Shown: piece by piece, positions 3,477 to 42,915 of the stretch
Layout: every line of letters starts with the position of its first letter
Numbering within the stretch: the stretch's first letter is position 1
Source of the DNA: Flavobacteriales bacterium
GTDB lineage: Bacteria; Bacteroidota; Bacteroidia; Flavobacteriales_D; Crocinitomicaceae
NCBI GenBank assembly: GCA_947449575.1
Contig: CANFRV010000001.1
Span: 153,121 to 213,074 of the forward strand
Direction of reading: 5' to 3'
Length of the DNA: 59,954 bases
The notes under the pieces: model-generated
What the model saw: only the letters and a program-made list of their open reading frames with translations
Told to the model about the DNA's origin: nothing
The model's database searches: none
Made by a program: the position numbers and the translations under genes

Positions 3477-3865
3477 TTTTACTATTTTTTATCTCAAAAT
3501 AAATTTTGATTCATATCTATTTTCAGTGAATGAAATAAAAGTAATGGAATTAATTCAGTTTATCAAGTGGTCTGCCTGTTAATTTTCGATAAATATTTTA
3601 AAATTGCTTTCTAAACTATGAATTTAATCGATGAAATTCATGCAAAAATACCGTATTCTTGTGTTACTCCTTCAATATATGTACCTGTTTAAAAATTAAA
3701 TACACAAAATAGTAAGTAGTTAAATTTGATTTAAAAAATTAAAAATCAAATAGTTAATGGTGTATTAAGTGTTTGTTTAAAAGGTATTAGTCTGTGTGCG
3801 ATTATTTTATTTTTGTGCAATTTTTAAAAAAAAAGTTATTTTTGAATACCAAAAGCTAAGCACAA
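3477..3865. other. Intergenic region with promoter-like -7 box
   Basis: 389 bp, very AT-rich, between a divergent pair of genes. The only signal I can support is the Bacteroidota -7 match TATTTTTG at 3808-3815, about 50 bp before the T9SS gene at 3866. No TTG at the usual 19-23 bp distance was found. No coding potential recognised. Confidence 0.5.
3808..3815 (+). promoter_or_regulatory. Putative -7 box (TATTTTTG)
   Basis: Exact match to the Bacteroidota -7 consensus TAnnTTTG; expected start of transcription near 3821, giving a ~45-nt leader for the 3866-7286 gene pair. The -33 TTG is not well placed, so this rests on one box. Confidence 0.45.
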
Positions 3866-25612: not shown

Positions 25613-26269
25613 TCAGTGTTGGCGATCTTCTTTCCATTTAAATGGGTTATTTAAAATGTATTTTTGAATATTTTCAAATGAAATTTGATTTCGAATAATA
25701 TGGTCATGAAAACGTGGTTGCCATGCAAATTTTGCATCGAATTGTTTCGCATGTTTTGTAACAACGGATTTATATGATCGGATTATTGTTGATATCGTTC
25801 CGGGTTTTGGTGAAATTGATGACATTTTATCATTTTTTTGCCCGGGATATGGATGACGTGGTGGATTGTAGAGGCGTTGCATTGCAACGCCTCTACAATC
25901 CACCACGTCATCCATCACCACGTCATCCATCACCACGTCATCCACCGCGTCATCCACCCCGTCATCCAATACCCCGTCACCCCGTTTTAAATCATTGCCT
26001 GTAATAATTAAAATCCCATGGGTATGATTTGGCATAACAACAAAATTACCTAATTCGATATGTGGAAAATGATTTGGTATTTCTCGCCAAAATTGTTCTG
26101 CAATAATTCCTACATCGGTCAGGACAATTTTTCCATTTTCGATTTCACCAAAAAAATGGTCTCTGTTTTTTGTGCAAATCGTAATGAAATATGATGCTTG
26201 GGATCCATAGTTCCAATTAGGTAATCGTGCGGATGTAATTCTGTATTTTTGTTGAAATTTAGTGGTCAT
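25613..26269 (-). CDS. REP-associated tyrosine transposase (RAYT), with internal repeat insertion
   Basis: 218 aa, Y1/HUH nuclease family. 'YFITICTKNRDHFFG' and the metal-binding HxH motif 'VVMPNHTHGIL' are in the N-terminal half; the catalytic Tyr is in 'IIRSYKSVVTKHAKQFD'; 'FAWQPRFHDHIIRNQISF' and 'YILNNPFKWKED' close the protein as in Bacteroidota RAYTs. Between the HxH and Tyr blocks is a low-complexity segment of DDVVMDD-type units coded by the palindrome at 25849-25915 and its tandem tail; the frame stays open. RAYTs excise and spread REP palindromes; matching palindromes occur at 27324 and 39697. Domesticated rather than an active IS: no terminal repeats or target duplication were found. 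Confidence 0.88.
   Translation of the reverse strand: MTTKFQQKYRITSARLPNWNYGSQASYFITICTKNRDHFFGEIENGKIVLTDVGIIAEQFWREIPNHFPHIELGNFVVMPNHTHGILIITGNDLKRGDGVLDDGVDDAVDDVVMDDVVMDDVVDCRGVAMQRLYNPPRHPYPGQKNDKMSSISPKPGTISTIIRSYKSVVTKHAKQFDAKFAWQPRFHDHIIRNQISFENIQKYILNNPFKWKEDRQH
25849..25915. repeat. Perfect REP-like palindrome inside the RAYT gene
   Basis: 33-bp arms (25849-25881 and 25883-25915) around a single central T; every pair checked is complementary. The core is GTAGAGGCGTTGCA-T-TGCAACGCCTCTAC. It would form a very stable single-strand hairpin, the substrate type recognised by RAYT nucleases. It lies in the variable linker of the RAYT coding region and is read through in frame. Confidence 0.93.
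25900..25980. repeat. Tandem 12/15-bp repeats next to the REP palindrome
   Basis: Units ending in GTCAT: two copies of CCATCACCACGTCAT, two 12-bp versions (CCACCGCGTCAT, CCACCCCGTCAT) and a degenerate last unit. All lengths are multiples of three, so copy-number change would not break the RAYT frame. Confidence 0.85.
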
Positions 26270-28441: not shown

Positions 28442-28632
28442 GTATGTATTTTTTTTGAGTTTTTATTTAAAATTATCGACTACTAATTTTAGAAATTAAT
28501 AGTTGTTATTTATTTGTGCAAATATAATAGTAATATTACTCTCAGAACTAAGATGAAGGTGATATAATAGAAACTCTTTTACCGAATTTTAGGACATTTT
28601 TTTATTTTATCGATAATATCTACTTTTAGATA

Positions 28633-29034
28633 ATGGTTCAAGAAACTAAATTATATGTTTTTTACGATGGTGAATGTGGTCTCTGCAATGCTTCTGTTCA
28701 ATTTGTGTTGAGACATGAAAAGACGAAACAACTCTATTTTTCCGCCCTTCAATCTGATTTTTCAAAGAAATTTTTTAGTGAAAATAATTTTCCTGCTCCT
28801 GATTACACAACATTTTATTTTTTTAGGAATGGAAAGTTGTATGAGAGATCGAAGGCAATACTATTGGTGACTAAATATCTTCGGTTTCCCTATTCAATTC
28901 TACAAATATTCGTCGTAGTGCCTTCGTTTTTACGAAATTATGTCTATAGTTATATTTCTGCCAGAAGAAGAAAGTGGTTTCCTGTTTCGTGTGCTATTCC
29001 TTCTGCAGAACATGAAGCGCGTTTTCTCAAATAA
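28633..29034 (+). CDS. Thiol-disulfide oxidoreductase-like DCC family protein (DUF393)
   Basis: 133 aa. The family is named for the DxxCxxC motif, here 'YDGECGLCNASVQFVLRHE' at residues ~12-30; 'LYFSALQSDFSKKFF' and the C-terminal 'ISARRRKWFPVSCAIP' also match DUF393. Thioredoxin-like fold; redox role presumed, substrate unknown. Upstream, TACTTTTA lies 8 bp before the ATG and resembles a weak -7 box, suggesting a very short leader. Confidence 0.85.
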   Translation: MVQETKLYVFYDGECGLCNASVQFVLRHEKTKQLYFSALQSDFSKKFFSENNFPAPDYTTFYFFRNGKLYERSKAILLVTKYLRFPYSILQIFVVVPSFLRNYVYSYISARRRKWFPVSCAIPSAEHEARFLK

Positions 29035-29197
29035 TACTATCTTTTTGACTATTTTTCCATTTTTAAGGATATTTATTTAAAAATATTTTTCGAATTATTT
29101 AATTGATAATTAATGATTTAACATAAATAGTCTATTAAATCTATAGATTTTATATAATATTTTTTAGAAAAAGCTTTTTTTTTATAAAAAGAGGTTG

Positions 29198-29205
29198 TAG
29201 TTTTG
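29198..29205 (+). promoter_or_regulatory. -7 box (TAGTTTTG) of sulfur operon
   Basis: Exact TAnnTTTG match, with predicted start of transcription near 29211, about 25 nt before the leader-peptide ATG. The expected -33 TTG position holds TTT, so a weak or activated promoter is possible. Confidence 0.55.
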
Positions 29206-29235
29206 TCCCGTCGCAATAAAAAAAAAGTAAAAAAA

Positions 29236-29289
29236 ATGAAAAAAATGACAAATAATATGATGCCTTGTTGTTTCCATTTAATGGATTGA
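29236..29289 (+). CDS. Leader peptide with tandem Cys codons (putative attenuator peptide)
   Basis: 17 codons, peptide MKKMTNNMMPCCFHLMD, ending in TGA. The two adjacent TGT codons are at 29266-29271, five codons before the stop. Four of the first nine residues are Met, so methionine could also be sensed. It follows a promoter box by 25 nt and precedes a terminator by 25 nt. Since the operon makes cysteine, a ribosome stalled at these codons when Cys-tRNA is scarce would leave the downstream RNA free to form an antiterminator. This is inferred from layout; comparable poly-Cys leader ORFs upstream of cysteine genes are known in mycobacteria. Confidence 0.6.
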   Translation: MKKMTNNMMPCCFHLMD

Positions 29290-29313
29290 TTTCATTTCGA
29301 ATATAGAATGAAC

Positions 29314-29350
29314 AGTCCTTTGAAATTTATTTTTTAAAGGATTTTTTTTT
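29314..29350 (+). terminator. Intrinsic terminator before sulfite reductase (attenuator terminator)
   Basis: TCCTTT (29316-29321) pairs with AAAGGA (29336-29341), extended inward by GAAA/TTTT and outward by AG/TT, ~12 pairs in all, followed by nine T (29342-29350). It lies upstream of the gene, not after one. TGAAAT at 29321-29326 can instead pair with ATTTCA at 29289-29294, which would open the base of the hairpin. Confidence 0.75.
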
Positions 29351-29371
29351 AAATTAAAATTAAAGGGGGAA

Positions 29372-31504
29372 ATGCAGAGTTTTTTATCAGAATTAGAGAA
29401 TCCAATTGTTCAACAAGATATTATTGAATTAGGACGCAAAATAGAAGCGTTTAATAATGGGTCAATACCAGAAGACAAATTTAAGGCATTAAGATTGGCG
29501 AGAGGTGTTTATGGACAACGGCAGCAAGGGGTTCAAATGATTAGAATCAAATTACCTTTTGGGAAAGTTACAGCAAAACAATTGATTCGAATTGCAGATG
29601 TAAGCGATGAATATAGTACAGGTAATTTACATATTACTACAAGGCAAGATATTCAAATACATTATGTTAGCTTAGATAGAACGCCACAATTATGGGCCGA
29701 ATTAGAGCGTGATGATGTGACTATTCGAGAGGCGTGTGGAAACACTGTGAGAAATGTTACAGCAAGCTCTATCGCTGGAATAGATAAAGACGAACCTTTT
29801 GATGTTGCTCCATACGCAGACTTAGTTTTTCGTTATTTTTTACGTAAACCTTTTGGCCAGGAATTAGGTAGGAAAATAAAGATTTCTTTCAGTTCTAGTG
29901 ATAAGGATGATGCCTTTTCTTTTATACATGATTTTGGTTTTATTCCGAAAATTTCATTTAATCAGGGAGTTCAAATTAGAGGTTTTAAATTATTGGTTGC
30001 TGGAGGTTTAGGAGCTCAACCATTCTTAGCAAAGGTAGCGTATGAATTTATTCCTGAGCAAGAGATTATTCCTTTTATTGAAGCTGCGATTCGGGTGTTT
30101 GATCGACATGGTGAGCGAAATTCTCGACATAAAGCACGACTAAAATATTTAATTGCAAAAATTGGTATTGAAGAATTCATTGCTTTGGTGGAATTGGAGC
30201 GAAAAGCGGTTCAGTACAGTCATGATACTGATTTTATTCTTTTTGATCAGCAATCTGAATTTAATACAGTGATTAATGAAGTGAAAAGTAAACAAGAAAT
30301 ACTTAAATCTTCGAATGACATAAAATACAATGAATGGTTAATAACCAACGTTTTCGAACAAAAACAAAATGGATATTTTGGTGTTTACGTGAAAGTGTTA
30401 TTAGGTAATTTCACGACAAGTCAAGCAAGAGTTTTGAGCGATATCGTTTCTACATATGCTGCCGATGATGTTCGTTTTACAATTGATCAAAGCTTGTTGT
30501 TGAAATTTGTGCGAACAGAAAACCTATTGCCAATTTATGAGGCTTTGAAAGGTATCAATTTAGCTAGTAGCGGCTTCAATAGCGTAGCTGATGTAACTGC
30601 TTGTCCAGGTACAGATACATGTAATTTAGGTATTTCTGACTCTACAAGTGTTACAAAAGTTATTGAAAGTGTTGTTAGAGATGAATACCCTGAATTGATT
30701 TATAATCAAGATATTAAGATTAAAATTAGTGGATGTATGAATTCATGTGGTCAACATGGATTAGCGCATATCGGTTTTCATGGAAGTTCATTGAAAGTAA
30801 ACGGGTTGACGGTTCCAGCTTTACAAGTTTTACTTGGTGGTGGTAAGTTGGGAGATGGTTTGGGTAGAATTGCTGAGAAAGTGATAAAAGTGCCTAGTAA
30901 AAGAGTGAAAAATGTAATTCGTTTCATTTTGGGAGATTATTTGAAAAATAGATCTGAAAATGAGTTGTTTAATGTTTATTATGATAGAAATGGGAACAAA
31001 TATTTTTATGATTTATTGAAACCTTTAACGGATGTGACAACATTAATTCCAGATGACTTTATTGATTGGGGTCATGATGAGCAATTTGTTACTGCAATTG
31101 GAGTAGGTGAATGTGCGGGTGTGATGATAGATTTGGTGGGTACCTTGATTTTTGACGCTGAAGAAAAGTTAGATTCAGCAGACAAAGCGTTGAAAGAAGG
31201 TCGATATGCTGACTCAATTTATTTCTCATATTCTTCTGGTATTCATGTAGCTAAGGCTCTATTACTTGATGAAAAGATTCAGTGTAATACGCAATCTGGA
31301 ATAATAGCAGATTTTGATAAATATCTAACGACTAAACTAGGTTTTTTTGAAATATCAAATTTTGCGGAATTTATTTTACAAATAAATAAAAATGAGCCAA
31401 TAAGAGAATTTTCAGAGGTCTATTATAATCAATTATTTGGTTTTGTCGAGAAAGCAAAGGAGTTACGAATGCAGCGCACTGATCAAAATCAAGTAGGTGA
31501 ATAG
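29372..31504 (+). CDS. Assimilatory siroheme sulfite (nitrite) reductase fused to a HEPN domain
   Basis: 710 aa. Residues 1-~540 are a siroheme/[4Fe-4S] reductase: two ferredoxin-like halves ('GVQMIRIKLPFGKVT', 'YSTGNLHITTRQDIQIHYV', 'REACGNTVRNVTAS') and cluster ligands C411/C417 ('ACPGTDTCNLG') and C455/C459 ('SGCMNSCGQHG'). It takes six electrons to reduce sulfite to sulfide; the sulfur genes downstream favour sulfite over nitrite. Residues ~585-700 resemble a HEPN helical domain ('ALKEGRYADSIYFSYSSG', 'KALLLDEKI') without the RxxxxH nuclease motif. The 'GVGECAGVMIDLVG' linker holds one extra Cys. First structural gene after the attenuator, with an unusually purine-rich leader before ATG. 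Confidence 0.9.
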   Translation: MQSFLSELENPIVQQDIIELGRKIEAFNNGSIPEDKFKALRLARGVYGQRQQGVQMIRIKLPFGKVTAKQLIRIADVSDEYSTGNLHITTRQDIQIHYVSLDRTPQLWAELERDDVTIREACGNTVRNVTASSIAGIDKDEPFDVAPYADLVFRYFLRKPFGQELGRKIKISFSSSDKDDAFSFIHDFGFIPKISFNQGVQIRGFKLLVAGGLGAQPFLAKVAYEFIPEQEIIPFIEAAIRVFDRHGERNSRHKARLKYLIAKIGIEEFIALVELERKAVQYSHDTDFILFDQQSEFNTVINEVKSKQEILKSSNDIKYNEWLITNVFEQKQNGYFGVYVKVLLGNFTTSQARVLSDIVSTYAADDVRFTIDQSLLLKFVRTENLLPIYEALKGINLASSGFNSVADVTACPGTDTCNLGISDSTSVTKVIESVVRDEYPELIYNQDIKIKISGCMNSCGQHGLAHIGFHGSSLKVNGLTVPALQVLLGGGKLGDGLGRIAEKVIKVPSKRVKNVIRFILGDYLKNRSENELFNVYYDRNGNKYFYDLLKPLTDVTTLIPDDFIDWGHDEQFVTAIGVGECAGVMIDLVGTLIFDAEEKLDSADKALKEGRYADSIYFSYSSGIHVAKALLLDEKIQCNTQSGIIADFDKYLTTKLGFFEISNFAEFILQINKNEPIREFSEVYYNQLFGFVEKAKELRMQRTDQNQVGE

Positions 31505-31603: not shown

Positions 31604-32368
31604 ATGAAAATAATAAATACCATACCGAAAGTAACATTAGTTGGCGCGGGTCCCGGAGATATAGAATTAATTACCTTGAAAGGGTTGAATGCTATCAAGT
31701 CTGCAGATGTAATTTTATATGATGCGCTTGTGAATGAGGATCTTTTAGAACTTGCTCCAAATGCAATTAAGATATTTGTTGGAAAACGTAAAGGGTATAA
31801 ATCATATTCTCAAGAGGAAATTAATCAATTAATTGTTGATCAAGCGTTCCTGCATGGCCATGTAGTTCGCTTAAAAGGAGGGGATTCTTTTGTTTTTGGA
31901 AGAGGTTACGAGGAAATAGAGCACGTAGAAGCTTTTGGAATTCCTGTATCGGTCCTTCCTGGTATATCAAGTTCTATTTCTGTTCCGGCTCTTGCTGGTA
32001 TTCCAGTAACTCATAGAGGGATTAGCAATAGTTTCTTTGTCTTAACAGGAACTTTATCGGATGGGAGTTTAAATCCAGAAATCGAGATTGCTGCCAAGAC
32101 GTCTGGCACAGTGGTCATTTTGATGGGGCTTGGTAAATTAGATGAAATCACTCAAATTTATAAGAAGTGTGGAAAGAGCGAACAATCAGTTGCTATTATT
32201 AGTAATGGCTCGATGTCAAATCAGACGACAGTGGTGGGGACAATCAGTTCAATAGCAGAAAATTCGGGAAAAATTCAAGCTCCAGGATTAATTGTAATCG
32301 GCTCTGTAGTTGAATTATCAACTGTTTGGAAAGATAAAGAGTATTTATTTGAGCTATCAAAATCTTAA
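31604..32368 (+). CDS. cobA: Uroporphyrinogen-III C-methyltransferase
   Basis: 254 aa SUMT. It makes precorrin-2 from uroporphyrinogen III with two SAM. Signatures: 'VTLVGAGPGDIELITLKGL' at the N-terminus, 'VVRLKGGDSFVFGRGYEE' and 'LPGISSSISVPALAGIPVTHRG' in the middle. With the precorrin-2 dehydrogenase half of the gene at 36528 it supplies siroheme for the adjacent sulfite reductase. Sits 99 bp after that gene in the same direction. Confidence 0.95.
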   Translation: MKIINTIPKVTLVGAGPGDIELITLKGLNAIKSADVILYDALVNEDLLELAPNAIKIFVGKRKGYKSYSQEEINQLIVDQAFLHGHVVRLKGGDSFVFGRGYEEIEHVEAFGIPVSVLPGISSSISVPALAGIPVTHRGISNSFFVLTGTLSDGSLNPEIEIAAKTSGTVVILMGLGKLDEITQIYKKCGKSEQSVAIISNGSMSNQTTVVGTISSIAENSGKIQAPGLIVIGSVVELSTVWKDKEYLFELSKS

Positions 32369-32486
32369 AATTTACGAGAATGTTTAATGTTAAAGCAGTC
32401 TATTTTTCATCATTTTTGTGTTGTGATTTATAGTAATAATAGAGTTAAAAAGATAAAAAAAGATAAAAAAATAGAAATAAATTAAA

Positions 32487-35423
32487 ATGAGAACAAGAGT
32501 GCAAATATTAGTAGCCATAATTGTGGTTATTACTTTACAGAGCGTTTACGCGCAAAATGGATTAATTCAGTTAACAGGTAAATTGCATGATAAATACAAT
32601 GGAGAACCATTAGTGGGTGCAATAGTGAAATTAAAAGAATCAGATAATCAAACTGTGACAGATAAAGAAGGGAAGTTTGTTTTGAAAATTGCAAACAAAT
32701 ACCCATTCGTACTATTAGTAAATTACCAAGGGTACGAAAATGCAGAGTTTATAGTTGAAAATGAACAGTCTAAATTGAATTTTCAGCTAGAGCCACAAGT
32801 ACTTATTGTCAATGAGGTAATTGTTTCTGCTTCTCGAATAAGTGAGAATATCTTTAAATCACCCGTTGCTATCGATAAAATAGATATCATAGCAATTAGA
32901 GAAACGCCAGCGCCAAGCTACTATGATGCTTTGGAAAATGTAAAAGGGGTGCAACTAACTACTTCAAGCTTAAATTTCAAAGTACCAAATACCAGAGGTT
33001 TTAATTCGCCTAATAATTTCAGATTCATGCAGTTAGTGGATGGCGTTGATCTTCAGGCACCAACTTTAGGAACTTCAATTGGAAGCGCAATGGGTCCAAA
33101 TGAGTTGGATGTTAGAAGTGTAGAGATTGTGCCAGGTTCATCTTCTGCTATTTATGGAATTAATTCATTAAATGGTTTGGCTAATATACAAACGAAAGAT
33201 CCTTATTTGAACCAGGGTGCTAGTATTTATCAAAGAACTGGAGTGAATCATTTAGATAATAAAGATCATGGTGCAAGCTTCATGGGTGAGTCAGCTTTTA
33301 GAGTTGCGGGGACAATTGATTCAAATCAACGTATTGCCTATAAGGTAAATGGATCATATTTTCAGGGAGTTGACTGGGTATCGTCCAACGAAACAGATCA
33401 AAATCCTTCAGGTTTATCAACATCCAATACGAGTTCATTATTTAATTCCACAGAATCTAATCCTGCCTATGATGCTTGGAATAAATATGGAGATGAAAGT
33501 AATAATAAGGTAACGGTTAATTTACCAACTGGAGTTACATTGAATAATGATGGTAAAACGAAAACAGAATTAGTTAGAAGAACTGGTTATTGGGAAAAAG
33601 ATTTAGTGAATCCAAAGATTTCTACTACTAAATTTGATGCAGGTTTGTTTTATAAATTCAAAAATGACGCAAAAATTAGTTATACGTATAGAGCAGGTGT
33701 CATCGATGGAGTTTTCCAAAGAGGGAATAAAATCCAACTAAACAATGTCGTTTTACAAAGTCATGCTTTAGAATTCAAAGGTGAAAAATTATCAGCCAAG
33801 TTGTATACAAATTCTGAGACTACAGGTAATTCATTTAATTTAAAACCTTTAGCAGATAATTTGGACTTAACGTTTAAAGATAATACAAAATGGAAATCGG
33901 ATTATCAAACAGCGTTAGCGAATGCTTATGCAACAAATGGGAATGATTTAGTTGCTGCAAATGCTGCGGCTAGAGCTGCTGCTGATGCAGGAAGACCTGA
34001 GCCAGGTTCAGATGTTTTTAATAGTACCAAAGAAACAATTTCGGGAATTAATAACTGGGATCATCCTTCCGTTTATTCATATGTGCAAAAACAAGATCCA
34101 TCAAATACTACTGGGGGAGCAAAATTATATCAAAATAGTAGGTTGTTTCATGGTGAGGTTCAGTATAATTTATCTTCTCTTGTAAATGATTTTGCAAAAA
34201 TTCAAGTGGGTGCAGATGCGAGAATTTATGATGTTATTCCAGATGGAAACAATTTTGTTGATTTTTCAAAAAGTATAGCTACAAGAACGCAACCTGGAGG
34301 GAAAGATGTGTATTATTCAAAATTCGGAGGATTTTTGCAAGCAAGTAAAGAATTGTTTAATGAGAAATTAAAGATTGTTGGTTCTATTCGCTACGATAAA
34401 AACTTAGCTTTTGATGGGAAATGGAATCCTCGAGCTGCTCTAGTTTATTCACCTGTAAAAAATCAATCGATCAGGTTTTCAGTCCAAAATGGATATAGAT
34501 TTCCTGCACTATTTGAAGCGTTATCGTATGTTAATAATGGTGGAGTAAGAAGAGTAGGTGGTCTTTCGCAAGTGAATGATAGTTTAAATTTTTTACAAAA
34601 TTCATATACGCAAGCTTCTGTTGATGCTTTTGTTAAAGCGGTTGGTAGTGATAAATCAGACGCAAATATTGAAGCAAAAAGGAATTTGTTAGTGGCTGCT
34701 AATATTCAGAATATGCAGCCAGAAAGAGTTAAATCATTGGATTTAGGTTACAAGGCCATTTTATTTAAGAATCGATTTGTTGTAGATGCGGATTTTTACT
34801 ACAACCAATATACAAATTTCTTAGGTCAAATTGAAGTGGCTGTTCCTACAAAAAGTTCTTCAAGTATAACTGTACAAGATCAAATCGGAACGTTTTCAGC
34901 AGCTAAAGATGTATTAAATACTCCGACAAAATATCGGGTTTATGCGAATTCAACGAATACTTTTAACGGGTATGGTTCTGCTATACGTTTAAGTTATAAC
35001 TTCTTCAAGAAGTACTCTGTTTCTGCTAATTTTAACTACAATGATTTTAAAGCGAAAAATCAAACGGATGTTTTCGGAACCAAAAGCAATACATTCACTG
35101 GGTTTAATACTCCAAAATACTCTGTAAATGTTCAGTTTGGAAACCGTGAATTGTTTAAAAATTTCGGCTTCAATATTGTTTGGAAATGGCAAGATGCATA
35201 CACTTGGAATAGTCCTCTAGCAAACGGAAGAGTTGCTGCGTTAAATAATTTTGATGCACAGATCTCATATAAAGTGGACAAATTGAAAACTCAAATAAAA
35301 GTAGGAGGTACAAATATTTTCAATCAACGTTATATTCAATATGCTGCAGGTCCAACAATTGGAGCGCTGTATTATGTCAGTTTAACTTTTGACGCTCCTT
35401 TTGAGAAAAAAATAAACAAATAA
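32487..35423 (+). CDS. TonB-dependent outer-membrane receptor in the sulfur island
   Basis: 978 aa. Signal peptide 1-22 (cut before QNG), a carboxypeptidase-regulatory-like beta-sandwich (residues ~28-105, 'GKLHDKYNGEPLVGAIVKL'), plug domain ('AIRETPAPSYYDALENVKGV', 'MGPNELDVRSVEIVPGSSSA') and a long beta-barrel ending in an aromatic residue-rich strand ('ALYYVSLTFDAPFEKKI'). The ligand is unknown; there is no SusD partner, so glycan uptake is unlikely. Placement between siroheme and peroxiredoxin genes suggests uptake of a sulfur source or of a metal/tetrapyrrole needed by the pathway. Regulated presumably with the island. Confidence 0.9.
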   Translation: MRTRVQILVAIIVVITLQSVYAQNGLIQLTGKLHDKYNGEPLVGAIVKLKESDNQTVTDKEGKFVLKIANKYPFVLLVNYQGYENAEFIVENEQSKLNFQLEPQVLIVNEVIVSASRISENIFKSPVAIDKIDIIAIRETPAPSYYDALENVKGVQLTTSSLNFKVPNTRGFNSPNNFRFMQLVDGVDLQAPTLGTSIGSAMGPNELDVRSVEIVPGSSSAIYGINSLNGLANIQTKDPYLNQGASIYQRTGVNHLDNKDHGASFMGESAFRVAGTIDSNQRIAYKVNGSYFQGVDWVSSNETDQNPSGLSTSNTSSLFNSTESNPAYDAWNKYGDESNNKVTVNLPTGVTLNNDGKTKTELVRRTGYWEKDLVNPKISTTKFDAGLFYKFKNDAKISYTYRAGVIDGVFQRGNKIQLNNVVLQSHALEFKGEKLSAKLYTNSETTGNSFNLKPLADNLDLTFKDNTKWKSDYQTALANAYATNGNDLVAANAAARAAADAGRPEPGSDVFNSTKETISGINNWDHPSVYSYVQKQDPSNTTGGAKLYQNSRLFHGEVQYNLSSLVNDFAKIQVGADARIYDVIPDGNNFVDFSKSIATRTQPGGKDVYYSKFGGFLQASKELFNEKLKIVGSIRYDKNLAFDGKWNPRAALVYSPVKNQSIRFSVQNGYRFPALFEALSYVNNGGVRRVGGLSQVNDSLNFLQNSYTQASVDAFVKAVGSDKSDANIEAKRNLLVAANIQNMQPERVKSLDLGYKAILFKNRFVVDADFYYNQYTNFLGQIEVAVPTKSSSSITVQDQIGTFSAAKDVLNTPTKYRVYANSTNTFNGYGSAIRLSYNFFKKYSVSANFNYNDFKAKNQTDVFGTKSNTFTGFNTPKYSVNVQFGNRELFKNFGFNIVWKWQDAYTWNSPLANGRVAALNNFDAQISYKVDKLKTQIKVGGTNIFNQRYIQYAAGPTIGALYYVSLTFDAPFEKKINK

Positions 35424-35455
35424 GAATAAGTAATAATTAAAAAAAAGTAGAAATT

Positions 35456-36091
35456 ATGGCAATTCAATTAGGTGATATAGCACCAAATTTCACAGTGGAA
35501 ACAACAAATGGTACAATCGATTTTCACAATTGGTTAGGGGAAAGTTGGGGGATATTATTTTCTCATCCGGCAGATTTTACACCAGTATGCACAACCGAAC
35601 TAGGACGAGTTTCTTTACTGAAAGACGAGTTTGAAAAAAGAAATGTTAAAACAATAGCATTAAGTGTTGATAGTCTTGATTCTCATTTTGAATGGATTAA
35701 AGATATTAATGAAACACAAAACACTACGGTCGATTTTCCAATTATTGCAGATCCTGAATTTAAGGTTGCTAATTTATACGGAATGATTCATCCAAATGCT
35801 TCTGATAAGTTTACTGTAAGATCTGTTTTTATTATTGGTGCTGACAAGAAAGTGAAATTGACACTTACATACCCAGCTTCCACTGGTAGAAATTTTCAAG
35901 AAATTATTAGGGTGATCGACTCTCTTCAATTGACAGCTAACTATTCCATTGCTACACCAGCGGATTGGAAAAATGGTGAAGATGTAGTAATTGCGCCAAG
36001 TGTTTTGGATGAAGAGATAGCTGCTAGATTTCCAAAGGGGTATACGAAAATAAAGTCGTATTTGAGAACAACTCCGCAACCTAATTTATAG
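35456..36091 (+). CDS. 1-Cys (Prx6-type) peroxiredoxin
   Basis: 211 aa. AhpC/TSA fold with peroxidatic C45 in 'HPADFTPVCTTELGR', Arg in 'YPASTGRNFQEIIRVID', and a long C-terminal extension 'ATPADWKNGEDVVIAP' typical of Prx6. There is no resolving Cys in the usual 2-Cys place, so an external thiol is needed. It reduces H2O2 and organic peroxides in the cytoplasm. Being 32 bp behind the TonB receptor within the sulfur island, it may protect the oxygen-sensitive siroheme and APS reductase clusters. Confidence 0.93.
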   Translation: MAIQLGDIAPNFTVETTNGTIDFHNWLGESWGILFSHPADFTPVCTTELGRVSLLKDEFEKRNVKTIALSVDSLDSHFEWIKDINETQNTTVDFPIIADPEFKVANLYGMIHPNASDKFTVRSVFIIGADKKVKLTLTYPASTGRNFQEIIRVIDSLQLTANYSIATPADWKNGEDVVIAPSVLDEEIAARFPKGYTKIKSYLRTTPQPNL

Positions 36092-36527
36092 GTTACATAT
36101 AATAAATTTTTTCACAACGAATGGCATCAAATGTTTCTGTTCATCTTCATAGATGAGCAGAAACATTATCGTTTCACTTCATACGATTAATTGCTATTTA
36201 TAGAGAAGTGGTTGAATTTATAAATTTTGAAGTGGATGATTGAAAAGACAGATTGGAGCCAAAAAAGTAGTATCACAGATCTTGTTTTAATTTATAATAT
36301 CCAAAAAAAATAATGACAAGAAAATTGCAACTATTCAAATCCTAGGATTTTCTTTAGTATAAGAATAAAAAAAGAGAATAAATTAAGATGAAAGATAGAA
36401 TAAGTGGTGACTTTAGTTATGAATACAGCAAAAGAAAGGTTATTTTTGTGAATCGTTTAATTCAAAAAAAAATGAATCAAGTGAAACTAGATACACGAAT
36501 TTTTTCTGATAAAAAAAGAATAATAAC
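36092..36527. other. Intergenic region inside the sulfur island
   Basis: 436 bp. Contains a strong stem-loop at 36131-36166, an exact -7 box TATTTTTG at 36441-36448 that could start a second transcript, and a 47-codon ORF (36388-36531) whose stop overlaps the next start. This is the largest gap in the island, so the sulfur genes are probably at least two transcription units. Confidence 0.5.
36131..36166 (+). terminator. Stem-loop after peroxiredoxin gene
   Basis: 15-pair stem (one G-T) with a 6-nt loop: ATGTTTCTGTTCATC pairs with GATGAGCAGAAACAT. The T run after it is weak, so it may be a terminator, or an RNA-stability element at the end of the first transcript. Confidence 0.5.
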
Positions 36528-36531
36528 ATGA
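36388..36531 (+). CDS. Possible 47-residue basic protein (doubtful)
   Basis: ATG-started frame, Lys/Arg/Ile-rich, no recognisable family. Its TGA overlaps the ATG of the siroheme/TauE gene as ATGA, which suggests coupling, but a promoter-like box lies inside the frame. No homologue recognised. Confidence 0.2.
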   Translation: MKDRISGDFSYEYSKRKVIFVNRLIQKKMNQVKLDTRIFSDKKRIIT

Positions 36532-38021
36532 TTGTTAATAAAACAGAAAAAAATGAATTATTTCCAGTTTTCTTAAAATTGAATGAAATAAAGGTTCTTG
36601 TAGTAGGTGGAGGCAAAGTAGCTTTGGAAAAGTTAACAGCAGTTTTGACGAATTCTCCAAGGACCGATGTGACATTGGTTACTGAAACGATTATAGATGA
36701 ATTGAAGGAATATGTCACTTTATTCCCTAACGTTCAACTTATTATAGATACTTTCAATCCAAGTTATCTAGAAGGTAAGAATGTTGTTCTTACTGCCTTG
36801 AATGACGTGGAAATGTCAGAAAAAATAAAAGTTCTGGCAAATGAGAAAGGATTATTATACAATGCAGCAGATAAACCCGAATTATGTGATTTTTACCTAG
36901 GTTCAATCGTTACGAAAGGTAATTTGAAGATAGCGATATCAACCAATGGGAAATCTCCCACAGTTGCGAAAAGATTAAAAGAAATTTTCAATGAAAATAT
37001 TCCAAATGAGATTGATAATTCACTTATTAATTTAAGTAAAATTAGAGAACATCTAAAAGGTGATTTTCAGCAAAAAGTGATTCAATTAGATCGTATTACT
37101 AGCGAGTTAAAAGAAAGTAACACGAAGGCTTGGTATCTTTTTAGTATTAAAAAGTTAATCGGATATGTAGCTTCTGTGCTAGGAATAATGTTAGCGGGAC
37201 ATTTACTTTTTACAATAATTCCGCTACATACTATTTGGACTTCTACAAGTAATCTAGCGAGTACTTTGGATTTGAATTTTGCTCTTTATATGCTAGGAGG
37301 TTTTATCGCTCAGATGATTGATGGAGCTCTAGGAATGGCCTACGGTGTAAGCGCTTCTACATTTTTAATGTCAATGGGGCTTTCTCCTGCAATTGCTAGT
37401 ATGAGTGTTCATACTTCTGAAATATTTACCAGCGGCGTCTCTGGTTTTATGCATTTACGGTTTGGTAATGTGAACAATAAATTATTCAAAGTTATTGTAA
37501 TTCCAGGAGTAATAGGTGCAATTTTAGGTGCTTATATCTTATCAGAATTTGAGCAATATAACACAATTATCAAACCAATTGTTGGTGTTTATACCCTAAT
37601 TTTAGGAATTATAATCATACGAAAAGTTATTCGCAAAAATAATAGACGAAAAAAAATCAAGAAAGTTGGTTGGCTTGCTGTAACCGGGGGATTTCTAGAT
37701 TCTATTGGTGGCGGTGGCTGGGGACCAGTTGTTTCTTCCACCTTGATAGCAAGTGGTAAAAATCCTAGAATGATTATTGGTTCAGTAAATTTGGCGGAGT
37801 TTTTCATCTCATTGGCGAGCTCGTTTACCTTTTTTACAATTATTGGAAGTACGCACTGGCAGCCAATTTTAGGACTAATATTAGGGGGAGTTTGCGCAGC
37901 TCCAATTGCAGCGCATCTTTCTAAAAGATTAAATGTAAAAGCTATGATGATTATGGTAGGAATCTTAATTATTATTGTTAGCTTACGTATAATAATATTA
38001 ACAGTATTGAAATTAATGTAA
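36528..38021 (+). CDS. Fusion: precorrin-2 dehydrogenase (CysG-N) + TauE/SafE (TSUP) permease
   Basis: 497 aa. Residues ~10-195 are the siroheme-synthase NAD domain ('LFPVFLKLNEIKVLVVGGGK', 'VVLTALNDVEMSEKI', 'AISTNGKSPTVAKRLKEIF'), which oxidises precorrin-2 and inserts iron. Residues ~210-497 are a TSUP membrane permease with about eight helices ('GGFIAQMIDGALGMAYGVSA', 'SVHTSEIFTSGVSGFMHL', 'GGFLDSIGGGGWGPVVSS'). TauE/SafE proteins move sulfite or organosulfonates. The fusion joins cofactor synthesis with sulfur-oxyanion transport in one chain. A single uninterrupted frame; no sign of sequencing frameshift. Confidence 0.9.
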   Translation: MIVNKTEKNELFPVFLKLNEIKVLVVGGGKVALEKLTAVLTNSPRTDVTLVTETIIDELKEYVTLFPNVQLIIDTFNPSYLEGKNVVLTALNDVEMSEKIKVLANEKGLLYNAADKPELCDFYLGSIVTKGNLKIAISTNGKSPTVAKRLKEIFNENIPNEIDNSLINLSKIREHLKGDFQQKVIQLDRITSELKESNTKAWYLFSIKKLIGYVASVLGIMLAGHLLFTIIPLHTIWTSTSNLASTLDLNFALYMLGGFIAQMIDGALGMAYGVSASTFLMSMGLSPAIASMSVHTSEIFTSGVSGFMHLRFGNVNNKLFKVIVIPGVIGAILGAYILSEFEQYNTIIKPIVGVYTLILGIIIIRKVIRKNNRRKKIKKVGWLAVTGGFLDSIGGGGWGPVVSSTLIASGKNPRMIIGSVNLAEFFISLASSFTFFTIIGSTHWQPILGLILGGVCAAPIAAHLSKRLNVKAMMIMVGILIIIVSLRIIILTVLKLM

Positions 38022-38118
38022 AAGGAAATAGCCATTATAAGAAATAATTCTGCTAAGTTAAATAGCAATGAAAATCTAAAACGGCCAAGTAACATCAGTA
38101 TAAAACAAACTATCAGAT

Positions 38119-38997
38119 ATGAAAAAAGTATTTTTAAGCGATTCAGGACCAGTTATTTCAGATTCAATTTATAGTTTCTGGAGATGGAACGAAGCCGATG
38201 ATTTAAAAGTTAAAAACATTGAGGAAATCACAAATTACTGTCTTGAATTAGGTATCAATGCCTTCGATTTGTCGAATTCGTATGGTTTGGGCCAAATGGA
38301 AGAATTATTTGGACATGTAATCGAAAATAAATCAGTAAAACGGGAAGATATTGTTCTATTTTCTAAATGTGGTTACAAATCACAAGAGGAAGGTACAGGA
38401 AAAATTATCTACAATCAATTAACTGAAAAATACATCAATAAAAGTGTTGATGATACGTTGAGAAAGTTAAAAACAGAGTATATAGATGTTTTTTTATTAA
38501 ATGAATTTGATCCATTAATGAGGTCTGAAGAGGTCGTTTCAGCATTGACAACTCTTGTGTATAAAGGAAAAGTGAAACATATTGGATTGTCAGGATTTAA
38601 CGTTTTTCAACACCAGCAATTGGCTAATTTTTCGTTAGATATCGTAACAAATCATTTTGAATTGAATCTTTTCAATACCACAGCGATTCACGATGGAAGA
38701 TTAGATTTTATAAAAGAACAATATGCAAAACCAATGGCTTGGGCGCCGCTAGCAGGTGGTAGAATTTTGACAGGTACTGACGCTGAAGCCATTGCTATTC
38801 GATCGCTTTTGGAAGAACTAGCACTAAAATACAATTCAAATGTGGAACAATTAGCAGTGGCATGGATTCATAAATTGGGTGCCTTACCAATTATTGGAAG
38901 TTTAAGCAAAGATCGAATTAAAAATGCTGCTACAGCAAGTGAAATTCAGTTGTCGCATGAAGATTGGCATAGAATTTATAATATCACACGGAAATAA
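38119..38997 (+). CDS. Aldo/keto reductase family protein, catalytic His replaced
   Basis: 292 aa, YdhF-like AKR barrel. Tetrad positions: D50 and Y55 ('FDLSNSYGLGQ') and K83 ('LFSKCGYK') are present, but at the usual His position ('LLHxPDP') the sequence is 'FLLNEFDP', with N128. Loss of this His occurs in some AKR groups and usually alters the reaction. The C-terminal NADPH-binding region 'LPIIGSLSKDRIKNAA' is normal. Its stop overlaps the cysH start by 1 bp, so it is translated with the APS reductase; the substrate may be linked to sulfur metabolism or simply carried along. Confidence 0.85.
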   Translation: MKKVFLSDSGPVISDSIYSFWRWNEADDLKVKNIEEITNYCLELGINAFDLSNSYGLGQMEELFGHVIENKSVKREDIVLFSKCGYKSQEEGTGKIIYNQLTEKYINKSVDDTLRKLKTEYIDVFLLNEFDPLMRSEEVVSALTTLVYKGKVKHIGLSGFNVFQHQQLANFSLDIVTNHFELNLFNTTAIHDGRLDFIKEQYAKPMAWAPLAGGRILTGTDAEAIAIRSLLEELALKYNSNVEQLAVAWIHKLGALPIIGSLSKDRIKNAATASEIQLSHEDWHRIYNITRK

Positions 38998-39683
38998 TGA
39001 ATACCAAATTAGTAAATATGGAGCACCTGTCGGTTGTAGAGGTTTTACAAAAAATTGCTACTGAATATGGGAATCGCGCTGCTTTTTCAACAAGTTTAAG
39101 TTGGGAAGATCAGGTGATTACGCATCATATTTTTTCAAATGATTTACCAATTCGTGTTTTTACGCTAGATACAGGACGTTTATTTCCAGAAACATATGGA
39201 GTTTTTAATAGAACGCTCGATCGTTATAAAAAGAAAATAGAAGTTTTTTCTCCTAAACATGAAGGGGTAGAAAAAATGGTAACTGAAAAAGGTCCTTTGA
39301 GCTTTTATGTTTCTTTAGAGAATCGGAAAGAGTGCTGTTTCATTCGAAAAGTTGAGCCTTTAAACAGAGCATTGAATAATGTCGATTGTTGGATAACTGG
39401 ATTAAGAGCAGAACATTCGGAAAATCGAAAGGATATGTCGATGACTGAAATCGATGATCAGCGAAATATTGTGAAAGTTCACCCAATTTTTAATTGGTCT
39501 TTCGAGCAAGTGAAAAATGAAATAAAAGAATTTAACATTCCCTATAATTCATTACACGACAAAGGATTTGTTAGCATAGGTTGTCAGCCATGTACCAGAG
39601 CCGTTCAAGAAGGTGAGGATTTCCGTGCAGGAAGATGGTGGTGGGAAAATAGTGATAAAAAAGAATGCGGATTGCATTCGTGA
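38997..39683 (+). CDS. cysH: Adenylylsulfate (APS) reductase
   Basis: 228 aa, PAPS/APS reductase family. Catalytic C224 in the C-terminal 'KKECGLHS'. The paired Cys motifs 'KECCFIRKVEPL' and 'GCQPCTRAV' are the [4Fe-4S] ligands of the APS-using type, consistent with the absence of an APS kinase (cysC) in the island. It reduces APS to sulfite plus AMP with thioredoxin. 'SFSTSLSWEDQ'-like N-terminal nucleotide loop present ('AFSTSLSWEDQVITH'). Overlaps the AKR gene by one base. Confidence 0.95.
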   Translation: MNTKLVNMEHLSVVEVLQKIATEYGNRAAFSTSLSWEDQVITHHIFSNDLPIRVFTLDTGRLFPETYGVFNRTLDRYKKKIEVFSPKHEGVEKMVTEKGPLSFYVSLENRKECCFIRKVEPLNRALNNVDCWITGLRAEHSENRKDMSMTEIDDQRNIVKVHPIFNWSFEQVKNEIKEFNIPYNSLHDKGFVSIGCQPCTRAVQEGEDFRAGRWWWENSDKKECGLHS

Positions 39684-39696
39684 TATAATTCTGGTA

Positions 39697-39718
39697 GGGA
39701 TATGGCATGCCATATCCC
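39697..39718. repeat. Perfect 22-bp REP-like palindrome between cysH and cysD
   Basis: GGGATATGGCA followed by its reverse complement, preceded by GTA so that the left arm reads GTAGGGAT as in the copy at 27324. It is 13 bp after the cysH stop and could also act as an mRNA-stabilising or terminator hairpin within the operon. Confidence 0.9.
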
Positions 39719-39793
39719 CAAAACCAAAATCACAACCGATTGATTTATGATTCATCATATATCAATATTTTGAAAAAATGAAAAAACAAAAAA

Positions 39794-40699
39794 ATGAAAA
39801 AATTAAATTATTTAGACGAATTAGAAGCAGAAGCAATATACATTATGCGAGAAGTTGCTGGTCAATTTGATAAGCCTGCATTGTTGTTTAGCGGCGGAAA
39901 GGATAGTATTTGTCTTGTTCATTTGGCTTTAAAAGCATTTCGTCCGGGTAAATTGCCTTTTCCCTTGGTTCATGTGGATACTGGTCACAATTCTCATGAG
40001 GTGATTGAATTTCGTGATAATTTAGTTGCTGAATTAGGCGAAAAACTGATTGTGAGAAAAGTGGAAGATACAATTAAGGAAAGAAATTTAGTAGATGGAA
40101 AAGGGAAATTTCCAAGTAGAAATGGATTACAAACCTACACTTTGCTAGATGTTATTTCAGAATTTGAATTCGACGCTTGTATCGGAGGAGCCAGAAGAGA
40201 TGAGGAAAAAGCGAGAGCCAAGGAACGAATTTTTTCTGTTCGCGATGAATTTGGACAATGGGATCCTAAAAAACAACGACCTGAATTGTGGAATATTTAT
40301 AATGGTAAAGTCGATAAGGGCGAAAATGTACGTGTTTTTCCAATTAGTAATTGGACAGAATTAGATATTTGGAATTACATTAAGCGCGAAAATATTCAAT
40401 TGCCATCTATTTATTTTACGCATTCCAGAGAGTGTGTTTTGACCGATGCAGGACAATTAATGGCAACGAATGAATTTTTGACGTTAGACGAAACAGATGT
40501 TATCGTCACAAGAAATGTACGATACAGAACCGTTGGTGATATGACCTGTACAGCAGCAGTAGAAAGCGAAGCTTATACAGTAGATGAGATTATTGCGGAA
40601 TTGAAAAATTCAAAAATCAGTGAGAGAGGAGCAACACGAATGGATGATAGAGTAAGTGAAGCAGCAATGGAAGATAGAAAAAAAGGTGGTTATTTTTAA
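39794..40699 (+). CDS. cysD: Sulfate adenylyltransferase subunit 2
   Basis: 301 aa, PP-loop ATP pyrophosphatase. 'LLFSGGKDSICLVHLALKAF' is the SGGxDS PP-motif; 'HVDTGHNSHEVIEFRD', 'ACIGGARRDEEKARAKERIF' and 'FPISNWTELDIWNYI' are CysD signatures. With CysN it makes APS from ATP and sulfate. Start chosen at 39794, MKKLNYLDELEAE, the normal N-terminus. Separated from cysN by ~120 bp. Confidence 0.97.
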   Translation: MKKLNYLDELEAEAIYIMREVAGQFDKPALLFSGGKDSICLVHLALKAFRPGKLPFPLVHVDTGHNSHEVIEFRDNLVAELGEKLIVRKVEDTIKERNLVDGKGKFPSRNGLQTYTLLDVISEFEFDACIGGARRDEEKARAKERIFSVRDEFGQWDPKKQRPELWNIYNGKVDKGENVRVFPISNWTELDIWNYIKRENIQLPSIYFTHSRECVLTDAGQLMATNEFLTLDETDVIVTRNVRYRTVGDMTCTAAVESEAYTVDEIIAELKNSKISERGATRMDDRVSEAAMEDRKKGGYF

Positions 40700-40821
40700 G
40701 TAGTCATTAGTAAATAGCTACTAGGTGAAATACAGACGAAATTAAATATTCAAAATAAAATTTGTTTTTAGGGAATGGTTATACTAATAACTAATACCTA
40801 ACAACTAAAAACTAATAAAGA

Positions 40822-42066
40822 ATGGATTTATTAAGATTTTTTACAGCAGGAAACGTAGACGACGGAAAAAGTACGTTAATCGGTCGACTTTTATTTGATA
40901 GTGATTCAATTTCAACCGACATTATTGAAACGTTAACGAAGCAAAGTAAAACAACTGGCATTGACGCTGATATTGATTTAGCCTTGTTAACCGATGGTCT
41001 AAGAGCTGAAAGAGAGCAAGGTATTACGATTGATGTGGCGTATAAATACTTTAGCACAGAAAAACGTAAATTTATTATTGCTGATACACCCGGACATACG
41101 CAGTACACTAGAAATATGTTTACCGGCGCTTCGAATGCGGATTTGGCAATTATTTTAGTAGATGCTAGAAATGGTATAACGGATCAAACCAAGAGACATA
41201 GTATCATTTCTTCTATTCTTGGTATTCCACATGTATTGGTTTGTATTAATAAAATGGACTTGGTTAATTATGATGAAGCCGTATTTAATCGAATAGAAAG
41301 TGATTACAAAGAGTTTGCAAAGCCTTTGAATTTGAATAAAATTTCATTTCTTCCTGCCAGCGCTTTAGCTGGAGATAATGTGGTGAAATCATCAGATAAA
41401 ATGCCTTGGTTCAAAGGTCCTTCAATGATGGATTTTTTAGAAACCGTAGAAATTATTGAAGACAGTGAGGTGAAAGATTCTCGTTTTCAAGTGCAATATG
41501 TTATTCGACCGCAAACGGAAGAATTACACGATTACAGAGGCTATGCGGGAAGTGTCTTAAGTGGCTCTTTCAAAAAAGGAGATGCAATCCAAATTTTTCC
41601 GTCTGAAATTATTTCGGAGATTGACAGAATGGAACGTAATGGAGTAGACGTAGATGAAGTTAATGCGTCAGAGCCAATTATTTTACATTTGAAAGATAAT
41701 ATTGATGTGAGTAGAGGAAGCACAATCGTTCCTGTTTCGCAAATACCATCGACTGAAAAAGAGTTACATGCTACAATTTGTTGGATGGATAATACTTCAT
41801 TTAAGGAAGGTCAAAAGTTACTTCTGCAGCAGAATAGTTTCAGAACGAAAGCTGTTTTAAAGGAAATTGAGAGTAAAATTGATATTCATTCTTACACAGA
41901 TCTTGAAAGTGATGGAACAATGAATTTAAATGATTTCTGTAACGTGCGAATTAAAACGGCAGAAACAGTAAGTTTTGATTCATACAGAAAAAACAGGAAA
42001 ACGGGCGCTTTTATATTAATTAACGAGAACACAAATAGCACTGTGGCAGCAGGTGTGTTTGCTTGA
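40822..42066 (+). CDS. cysN: Sulfate adenylyltransferase subunit 1 (GTPase)
   Basis: 414 aa, EF-Tu-like GTPase that drives CysD. P-loop 'FFTAGNVDDGKSTLIGRLLF', switch 'REQGITIDVAYKYF', 'DTPGHTQYTRNM' and 'NKMDLVNYD' follow; two beta-barrel domains complete it. It ends after the GTPase module, with no APS-kinase (CysC) fusion, which agrees with the APS-type CysH upstream. Confidence 0.97.
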   Translation: MDLLRFFTAGNVDDGKSTLIGRLLFDSDSISTDIIETLTKQSKTTGIDADIDLALLTDGLRAEREQGITIDVAYKYFSTEKRKFIIADTPGHTQYTRNMFTGASNADLAIILVDARNGITDQTKRHSIISSILGIPHVLVCINKMDLVNYDEAVFNRIESDYKEFAKPLNLNKISFLPASALAGDNVVKSSDKMPWFKGPSMMDFLETVEIIEDSEVKDSRFQVQYVIRPQTEELHDYRGYAGSVLSGSFKKGDAIQIFPSEIISEIDRMERNGVDVDEVNASEPIILHLKDNIDVSRGSTIVPVSQIPSTEKELHATICWMDNTSFKEGQKLLLQQNSFRTKAVLKEIESKIDIHSYTDLESDGTMNLNDFCNVRIKTAETVSFDSYRKNRKTGAFILINENTNSTVAAGVFA

Positions 42067-42111
42067 TTTTTAAATACCTTTGAGCGACCGATAAAAAATA
42101 AAAAAATATAA

Positions 42112-42915
42112 ATGGATTCATTCATAGACGAATTATACGAAAAGCATAAAGTAAGGACTGTTTTACCTTCTCAATTACTGGTCAATACGTTTATTGATTC
42201 TCTACTTTCAATATTATTTCCAACGTACAACAACAAATTATTTGCAGGAATAGAAAAGCTTGAAGAAGAATATGAAAAGAATAAAAATCAATTAAATATT
42301 CTTTTATTACATGTGAAAAATGATCTAAAAGTGGATTCTATAGCTATTCGAAATTCTTTTTATGACTTGTTGCCAGAGATATATAAATTATTGATTTTGG
42401 ATGCAGAGGCAATTGAATCAGGCGATCCAGCAGCAACTAATAGAGATGAAGTGATGAGATCTTATCCTGGTTTTTACGCAATTAGTGTTTATCGTATCGC
42501 CCACATTCTGCATACATTGGAGGTGCCATTTATTCCTCGTATTTTGACGGAAATCGCACATAGTAAAACAGGAATAGATATTCATCCTGCTGCTGAAATC
42601 GGAAACTCTTTTTTTATTGATCACGGCACGGGTATTGTTATTGGAGCTACTGCTAAAATTGGCTCAAATGTAAAAATCTATCAAGGTGTTACGTTGGGTG
42701 CGTTAAGTGTTAAAAAACATATGGCAGAACTAAAGCGTCATCCCACGATTGAAGATAATGTTGTGATTTATTCTGGTGCAACTATACTTGGAGGGACAAC
42801 TGTTATTGGAAGTCATTCAACGATTGGAGGGAATGTGTGGATTACTAAAAGTGTGAAACCAAATTCACTTGTCTATCATAAAGCCGATTTAAAAATTGAA
42901 GAAATAAATAAATAA
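42112..42915 (+). CDS. cysE: Serine O-acetyltransferase
   Basis: 267 aa, EpsC/SAT-type with helical N-domain and left-handed beta-helix: 'SYPGFYAISVYRIAHIL', 'EIAHSKTGIDIHPAAEIG', 'FIDHGTGIVIGATAKIGSNV' and 'GVTLGALSVKK' are the hexapeptide core; His in 'DHGTG' is catalytic. It makes O-acetylserine from serine and acetyl-CoA. The C-terminus is short and lacks the Ile-ending peptide of enterobacterial CysE, so binding to cysteine synthase may differ. Its stop overlaps the cysM start (TAATG). Confidence 0.96.
   Translation: MDSFIDELYEKHKVRTVLPSQLLVNTFIDSLLSILFPTYNNKLFAGIEKLEEEYEKNKNQLNILLLHVKNDLKVDSIAIRNSFYDLLPEIYKLLILDAEAIESGDPAATNRDEVMRSYPGFYAISVYRIAHILHTLEVPFIPRILTEIAHSKTGIDIHPAAEIGNSFFIDHGTGIVIGATAKIGSNVKIYQGVTLGALSVKKHMAELKRHPTIEDNVVIYSGATILGGTTVIGSHSTIGGNVWITKSVKPNSLVYHKADLKIEEINK

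Follow-up and report, generated by a model that had tools for sequence, protein, structure and literature searches.

The enterobacterial trp, his, thr and ilv operons are governed by attenuators; in thr and ilv, the leader contains codons for two or more of the amino acids that the operon produces. Cysteine leader peptides of mycobacterial cys operons were reportedly treated by Canestrari et al. in 2020, and to our knowledge few amino-acid regulators have been characterised in Bacteroidota. Among described systems, uORFC-8-2 is a leader ORF with tandem cysteine codons and a terminator-like U run before cysS in Rhodobacterales, for which the excerpt of PMC8632094 devoted to it proposes ribosome-mediated attenuation. 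The cysteine leaders of cys operons in Actinobacteria show no conserved terminator hairpin, and Rho was suggested for them in the corresponding excerpt of PMC1262725; a figure legend in PMC13236596 refers to regulatory Cys codons in leaders of M. tuberculosis. For Flavobacterium psychrophilum, a section of PMC9723704 suggests that amino-acid operons are attenuated through leader peptides and describes the pheA and hisG leaders as structured; it names no cysteine, methionine or sulfur leader. The excerpts from PMC7366714 and PMC2965389 contain, respectively, leader-peptide-like short ORFs in Bacteroides with no cysteine case among them, and no cysteine-attenuator case for Bacteroidota. The initial annotation of the DNA studied here knew of no described cysteine attenuator in Bacteroidota, and none occurs among the literature matches listed, to which supplements and most subscription papers do not belong.

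The window, that is, the whole stretch of 59,954 nucleotides that was analysed, carries a sulfur-assimilation island whose upstream region is very probably a trp/his-type ribosome-mediated transcription attenuator, found in many Bacteroidota, that would read charged tRNA-Cys and probably tRNA-Met. The mechanism is of a known kind; the Cys-plus-Met code and the serial gates are its unusual traits. It has the architecture and logic of the enterobacterial attenuators and differs from them in amino acids, in taxon, in the A+T-rich hairpin of the window and in the serial attenuators of some loci. It shares with uORFC-8-2 a short ORF, tandem Cys codons and then a U run consistent with an intrinsic terminator. 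In contrast, uORFC-8-2, as excerpted (PMC8632094), belongs to another phylum, precedes the Cys-tRNA synthetase gene cysS and is a conserved RNA motif of one order for which no Met component is described, whereas the present unit targets sulfate assimilation and has no evident conservation of RNA sequence between genera. By description, then, a system known only before cysS in Rhodobacterales is set apart from one before a sulfite reductase (SiR) gene in Bacteroidota relatives. The mycobacterial leaders are likewise Cys-rich short ORFs before cysteine or sulfur operons, but the present locus has an intrinsic terminator and a coevolving antiterminator, and so does not belong to their terminator-less type. 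With F. psychrophilum it shares the phylum and the proposed mechanism. For Bacteroidota, the locus offers a specific, testable switch for sulfate assimilation.

Architecture and alternative folds of the leader

All parts of the unit lie on the + strand, and the promoter box, the 17-codon ORF, its tandem Cys codons, the 12-pair hairpin, the nine T and the 21-bp gap were all found where the initial annotation had placed them. The TAnnTTTG box TAGTTTTG, read from the sequence at 29198-29205, is a promoter box of Bacteroidota type. The leader ORF MKKMTNNMMPCCFHLMD runs from ATG to TGA (29236-29289) and is supported by sequence, shuffles and relatives. The tandem Cys codons TGTTGT (29266-29271) are identified as regulatory by sequence and by the enrichment of such doublets at SiR loci. 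Met codons occur at 29236, 29245, 29257, 29260 and 29281, and the tandem pair at 29257-29262 is a probable second set of regulatory codons, given that Met is enriched in SiR leaders and not in hisG leaders. The intrinsic terminator (29314-29350) comprises the hairpin at 29314-29343 and the T-run at 29342-29350, and the sulfite reductase ATG follows at 29372, 21 bp 3' of the T-run. The locus thus has a leader ORF with codons of an amino acid made by the operon, and an intrinsic terminator between this ORF and the first gene.

The first gene (29372-31504) encodes a NirA-type sulfite reductase with a C-terminal HEPN domain, as judged by the Pfam families NIR_SIR, NIR_SIR_ferr and HEPN; its best NCBIfam match is the NirA family at 233.5 bits, under the family cut-off of 523. 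The remaining island (31604-43796, +) was named from family searches and encodes uroporphyrinogen-III methyltransferase, a TonB receptor-like ORF (named by eye), peroxiredoxin, a siroheme-synthase/TauE fusion, aldo-keto reductase, CysH, CysD, CysN, CysE and CysM. The fusion is a single ORF (36528-38021) with the N-terminal part of a siroheme synthase (NAD_binding_7, Sirohm_synth_M) and a TauE/SafE sulfite exporter domain. The upstream neighbour, a DCC1-like gene, ends at 29034, and the attenuator unit is therefore intergenic. Elsewhere in the window, a frame on the minus strand (25613-26269) contains an internal repeated DDVVM stretch and an MPNHTHGI motif, which we take to be typical of REP-associated transposases.

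The chance expectation was examined within the window. The segment 29313-29342 folds at -10.7 kcal/mol (z -4.6), which none of 200 shuffles equalled, and 3 out of 300 shuffled versions of the intergenic region contained an equally strong terminator. A leader with tandem Cys codons (CC) at the right distance appeared in 82 of 20,000 shuffles, and one with both CC and tandem Met codons (MM) in none of 20,000. With 19 terminators on the plus strand and 11 on the minus strand, this is the sole unit of CC leader and terminator on either strand of the window. A scan for consensus terminators, which required a short loop and at least three G-C pairs, returned no site in 28500-30000. Since the chance of a CC leader in a single sequence is not negligible, and because peptides rich in Cys and Met can bind copper, the terminator might be unrelated to a short ORF that is a chance frame or a small metal-binding protein. 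We hold this to be very improbable in view of the narrow terminator spacing and the species-specific pairing with the terminator arm among relatives (see below). In the same genome, a second match to TGYTGYNNNCAYNNNATG was rejected as a second attenuator; it lies inside a peptidase-like coding frame (named by eye).

RNA spanning 29278-29330, which a ribosome stalled at the Cys codons would expose, is predicted to fold as an antiterminator with an MFE of -12.6 kcal/mol (z -2.6; equalled by 6 of 200 shuffles). Its 5' strand (29278-29288) is the end of the leader ORF, a kind of position that is conserved in relatives, and its 3' strand (29313-29323) overlaps the 5' arm of the terminator. Positions 29278-29281 and 29283-29288 pair with 29313-29318 and 29320-29323, leaving 29282 and 29319 unpaired, and enclose an inner hairpin (29291-29312) of 29291-29297 with 29306-29312. 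When the RNA before 29298 was covered, as by a ribosome at the stop codon, the RNA was unstructured up to 29330 and the complete RNA formed the terminator only. From 29278 on, the complete RNA preferred the terminator plus inner hairpin (-15.2), which is stabler than the antiterminator; the switch must therefore be kinetic, with the antiterminator prevailing because it forms earlier. When the untranslated leader was folded in full (29209-29348), the antiterminator and not the terminator was predicted, so that termination would need leader translation, and untranslated leader RNA might, in this model, read through. In a plain duplex test the window's own antiterminator pairing gave p 0.63 and it stands out only with the inner hairpin; the support for it is this hairpin together with the relatives.

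An attenuator read by the ribosome before the sulfur island had already been proposed from the letters of the window. Its Cys codons, terminator and complementarity are borne out in relatives, but its specific antiterminator, ATTTCA with TGAAAT, is not. The two segments are complementary as claimed, yet their pairing alone yields just -1.3 kcal/mol and was rejected, 29278-29288 with 29313-29323 being favoured. The antiterminator logic, free when the ribosome is stalled and covered when it is at the TGA, carries over unchanged to the replacement pairing. An antiterminator that excludes the terminator is accordingly indicated both by the fold in the window and by the pairing in relatives.

The leading edge of a stalled ribosome lies about 15 nt past the start of its P site. 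Transcription would start a few bases after 29205. With Cys or Met scarce, the ribosome would stall at 29257-29271 and leave 29283-29288 and the inner hairpin free; 29278-29323 would then fold as the antiterminator before the 3' arm of the terminator is made, and RNA polymerase would run on into the sulfite reductase gene and, presumably, the island. With both plentiful, the ribosome would reach the TGA at 29287 and cover the RNA to about 29299, blocking the antiterminator, and the terminator would then stop transcription near 29350. From sequence we infer that the ribosome stalls, that it is coupled to the polymerase, that transcription reads through into the downstream genes and that the switch responds to each amino acid. 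If true, ribosome-RNA polymerase coupling in Bacteroidota would be close enough for a stalled ribosome to steer nascent RNA.

Leaders, terminators and pairing at related loci

Of 40 genomes searched, 19 contained the sulfite reductase, the window's own among them, and 80 named loci were added, being the best 80 of at least 590 confirmed stretches. Without two gene fragments (L023 and L025), which were excluded from all counts, there were 99 loci; these are the best matches to the window protein and not a random sample, and 22 were dropped as near duplicates, leaving 77 non-redundant loci. A terminator of -8 kcal/mol or better lay within 220 nt upstream of the SiR gene in 37 of the 77. Leaders were sought as ATG frames of 8-45 codons in the 170 nt before the terminator. 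A CC leader was present in 21 of these 37 loci against 0.92 in shuffles (maximum 4 of 200), and an MM leader in 12 against 0.37 (maximum 3 of 200). NN (9 vs 2.7) and TT (6 vs 1.5) were mildly raised and II was low (0 vs 5.0); the remaining doublets stayed within about two standard deviations of the shuffles, and none came near CC or MM. When leaders were chosen regardless of content (29 leaders out of the 37 regions), the only residues past |z| 3 were C (12.7% vs 3.8%, z 6.7) and M (10.3% vs 2.5%, z 6.8).

Under a strict rule, a CC attenuator occurred on the sense strand of the available flanks in 27 of the 77 loci, and the available flanks of the other 50 contained none. The loci without a strict attenuator held 16 SiR-proximal terminators, which were sorted by eye. 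Nine of them follow Cys codons in another spacing or in a longer or TTG- or GTG-started frame (L010, L039, L046, L049, L060, L067, L094, L097 and L101), and before seven nothing convincing was seen (L040, L061, L066, L081, L082, L091 and L105). CC frames before terminators numbered 56 across the SiR loci, including 6 antisense frames whose gaps were spread over 18-118 nt. Two of the loci, L029 (labelled Candidatus Kuenenia) and L081 (Beijerinckiaceae), are Bacteroidota-type SiR loci in records that are perhaps mislabelled or misbinned.

The leader of the nearest relative, L006, is MKKMTNNMMHCCFHLMD, and outside the genus the leaders have no evident alignable sequence. Between genera the peptides vary, as in MSFKMHMTCCCWVCKTYLLR, MKRMDKMMICCSTCSQ, MNCFNNCCCNCCCCCEIQQLKEGFIRTD (Flexithrix) and MKNVMTIMPKKINTAKCCCKHFHVEAGASGT (Chryseolinea), and seem unrelated except for Cys and Met, as would not be expected of a peptide that acts by folding or binding. 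A search for CC leaders upstream of SiR genes in relatives had been suggested as a check, and the Cys codons and the terminator are indeed retained despite differing letters. SAM riboswitches are found at many bacterial sulfur genes, and a metabolite-binding riboswitch with an incidental ORF would be a further explanation; we consider it the least probable of all, as it is the codon content that is preserved from genus to genus, and Rfam 15 at the gathering score gave no match in the window. In seven loci, namely six SiR loci including the window's own and the hisG locus of its genome, Rfam 15 returned only one tRNA. The lack of evident shared sequence between genera also means that homology-based RNA searches likely miss these leaders, which the codon-plus-terminator test finds.

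In addition, we examined the pairing between leader and terminator in 35 attenuators, after setting aside 13 duplicate loci, a CC frame of L080 that lies inside another gene, and an overlapping terminator of L089 whose gap is 3 nt. For each attenuator, the segment that begins 12 nt past the first tandem Cys codon and extends to the terminator was paired with the terminator's 5' arm. Pairing with the own arm beat shuffles in 23 of the 35 at p<=0.05 and in 14 at p<=0.01 (Fisher 1.4e-25). The segments fitted their own arms at -13.28 kcal/mol against -8.55 for those of other species, a difference matched in none of 20,000 permutations, and the own arm ranked first in 8 of the 35 and among the top three in 17. 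By the same test, the RNA up to and including the Cys codons had no own-arm preference (p 0.92). We read the own-arm preference as compensatory evolution of an antiterminator. Covariation of the hairpins had been named as a check, and the leader end does pair with the terminator's 5' arm, in each species by means of its own sequence. As judged by comparison across loci, leader codons, terminator and alternative pairing are shown to be kept by selection in Bacteroidota.

The spacing bears on how the leader would act. The gap from leader stop to terminator has a median of 27 nt (IQR 23-33.5), and in 31 of the 35 attenuators, a set limited to gaps of 5-60 nt, the terminator lies 22-41 nt past the stop. 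If the leader acted by way of Rho or translation, which is the proposal for the poly-Cys leaders of mycobacteria, and not by way of the intrinsic terminator, this would be in keeping with the Mycobacterium cys operons, whose Cys leaders lack conserved terminators in the excerpt of PMC1262725, and with leaders that start 4-9 nt after the promoter box and may be leaderless. This regular terminator spacing and the coevolution of its 5' arm with the leader end leave such an action only a slight chance.

Cysteine and methionine codons and control genes

The initial annotation had left methionine sensing open; Met proved as enriched as Cys, in the same stalling zone. Codons for Cys and Met cluster in a zone 12-30 nt upstream of the antiterminator strand; a ribosome stalled there would leave that strand free, and Met makes up 24-27% of codons in this zone against 3-5% at 48-90 nt. 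The position of Cys is partly fixed by the definition of the segment, and the leaders were chosen for CC and not for Met. At least two internal Met codons were nevertheless present in 32 of the 35 leaders and MM in 18; 75 of the 103 internal Met codons, however, lie within three codons of a Cys. The same attenuator might sense Cys alone, with Met codons as start-site redundancy or bystanders: nested ATG starts were seen, so some AUG runs could be alternative starts, and, of the two amino acids, Cys is the one that the island makes more directly (CysE, CysM). The Met content of leaders selected for CC, its concentration in the stalling zone and the hisG leaders without Met excess weigh against this reading, which we regard as possible though doubtful. 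We lean, with some reserve, towards a Bacteroidota-wide attenuator in which one leader integrates tRNA-Cys and tRNA-Met to gate sulfate reduction, sometimes through serial gates and once with a tRNA-Cys behind the gates.

As a control, hisG was analysed in relatives of the same order, some of whose genomes also served for the SiR loci, with the window's genome included. A frame with tandem His codons (HH) preceded 22 of 44 terminators in 30 loci (0.9 in shuffles, maximum 4), one per locus, and HH leaders at 22 of 30 loci indicate that histidine attenuation is common here. In the residue test, which covered 26 of the 30 loci (25 leaders from 26 regions), only H passed |z| 3 (20% vs 4.1%, z 10.5), with no Met excess beyond that. 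The codon-plus-terminator test thus returns His for hisG, in agreement with the hisG case of F. psychrophilum as excerpted (PMC9723704). The own-genome hisG (locus L132) has the His leader MILKMKQQLHHHFIRLQAL plus a terminator, and hisG locus L124 additionally shows a CC frame farther upstream. For recA, no CC leader was found at attenuator spacing among 19 terminators in 30 loci; a CC frame occurred somewhere in 2 of the 19 terminator regions (0.3 expected), outside the spacing rule. For cysD, which matched in 86 of 149 genomes, no CC leader stood at the usual spacing in the 30 best loci with a 1.5 kb flank, and the single CC frame lay 62 nt from its terminator. Probably cysD is seldom first in its operon and hence an uninformative anchor with this flank.

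Serial attenuators, promoter and probable loss of the unit

Two attenuators in a row were found at six loci (L020, L022, L038, L048, L074 and L087). The TAnnTTTG box stood before the first and not the second in five of the six, as expected of two gates on one transcript, and before neither in L087. At L020, from a genome of the same order, a tRNA-Cys (GCA) lies at 3470-3543 (-) between the second attenuator and the SiR gene on the same strand; it is the only tRNA-Cys in the 69 loci scanned. A tRNA-Cys probe returned the L020 copy, two short weak matches in genome G034 and none in genome G000; since the probe picked up no tRNA-Cys of G000 at all, its result does not establish a single copy in G034. 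L073 has another leader, MKKNYIHIKYEYCCCCMIMNSLA, with a terminator (7-nt gap) some 2120 nt past the start of its SiR gene and ahead of the uroporphyrinogen methyltransferase gene, making separate candidate gates at two genes of one locus.

The TAnnTTTG box was aligned in 7 of 7 same-genus sequences and occurred within 70 nt of the leader ATG in 13 of 35 leaders, against 1.8 expected. In L043, L045, L058 and L080, all from records named Pedobacter, the leader starts just 4 nt after TATATTTG, a distance at which the leader ORF may be leaderless. In the same-genus sequences L007-L009 the palindrome region and the promoter box are both retained and the entire unit between box and ATG is missing, while the more distant congeners L010 and L011 carry it; the unit is thus a removable, dispensable module. 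From protein identities to the window of 76-77% versus 72-74%, without a tree, we infer its loss in the L007-L009 branch.

Farther upstream, the same-genus alignment revealed the element CTATTAAATCTATAGATTT (29132-29150) with the palindrome AAATCTATAGATTT (29137-29150), which is largely conserved in seven same-genus sequences, including the three without an attenuator. It may be a transcription-factor site that is distinct from the attenuator. In the genome of the window, CTAYTAANNCTATAG matched exactly only at this element and with one mismatch at 9 further places, which carry no weight alone because a reversed control pattern gave 30 matches (vs 10). One such site with a single mismatch, in L199 (about 1510-1524, -), is followed by TAGATTTG before two membrane-protein frames that, by eye, look like YeeE/YedE sulfur transporters.
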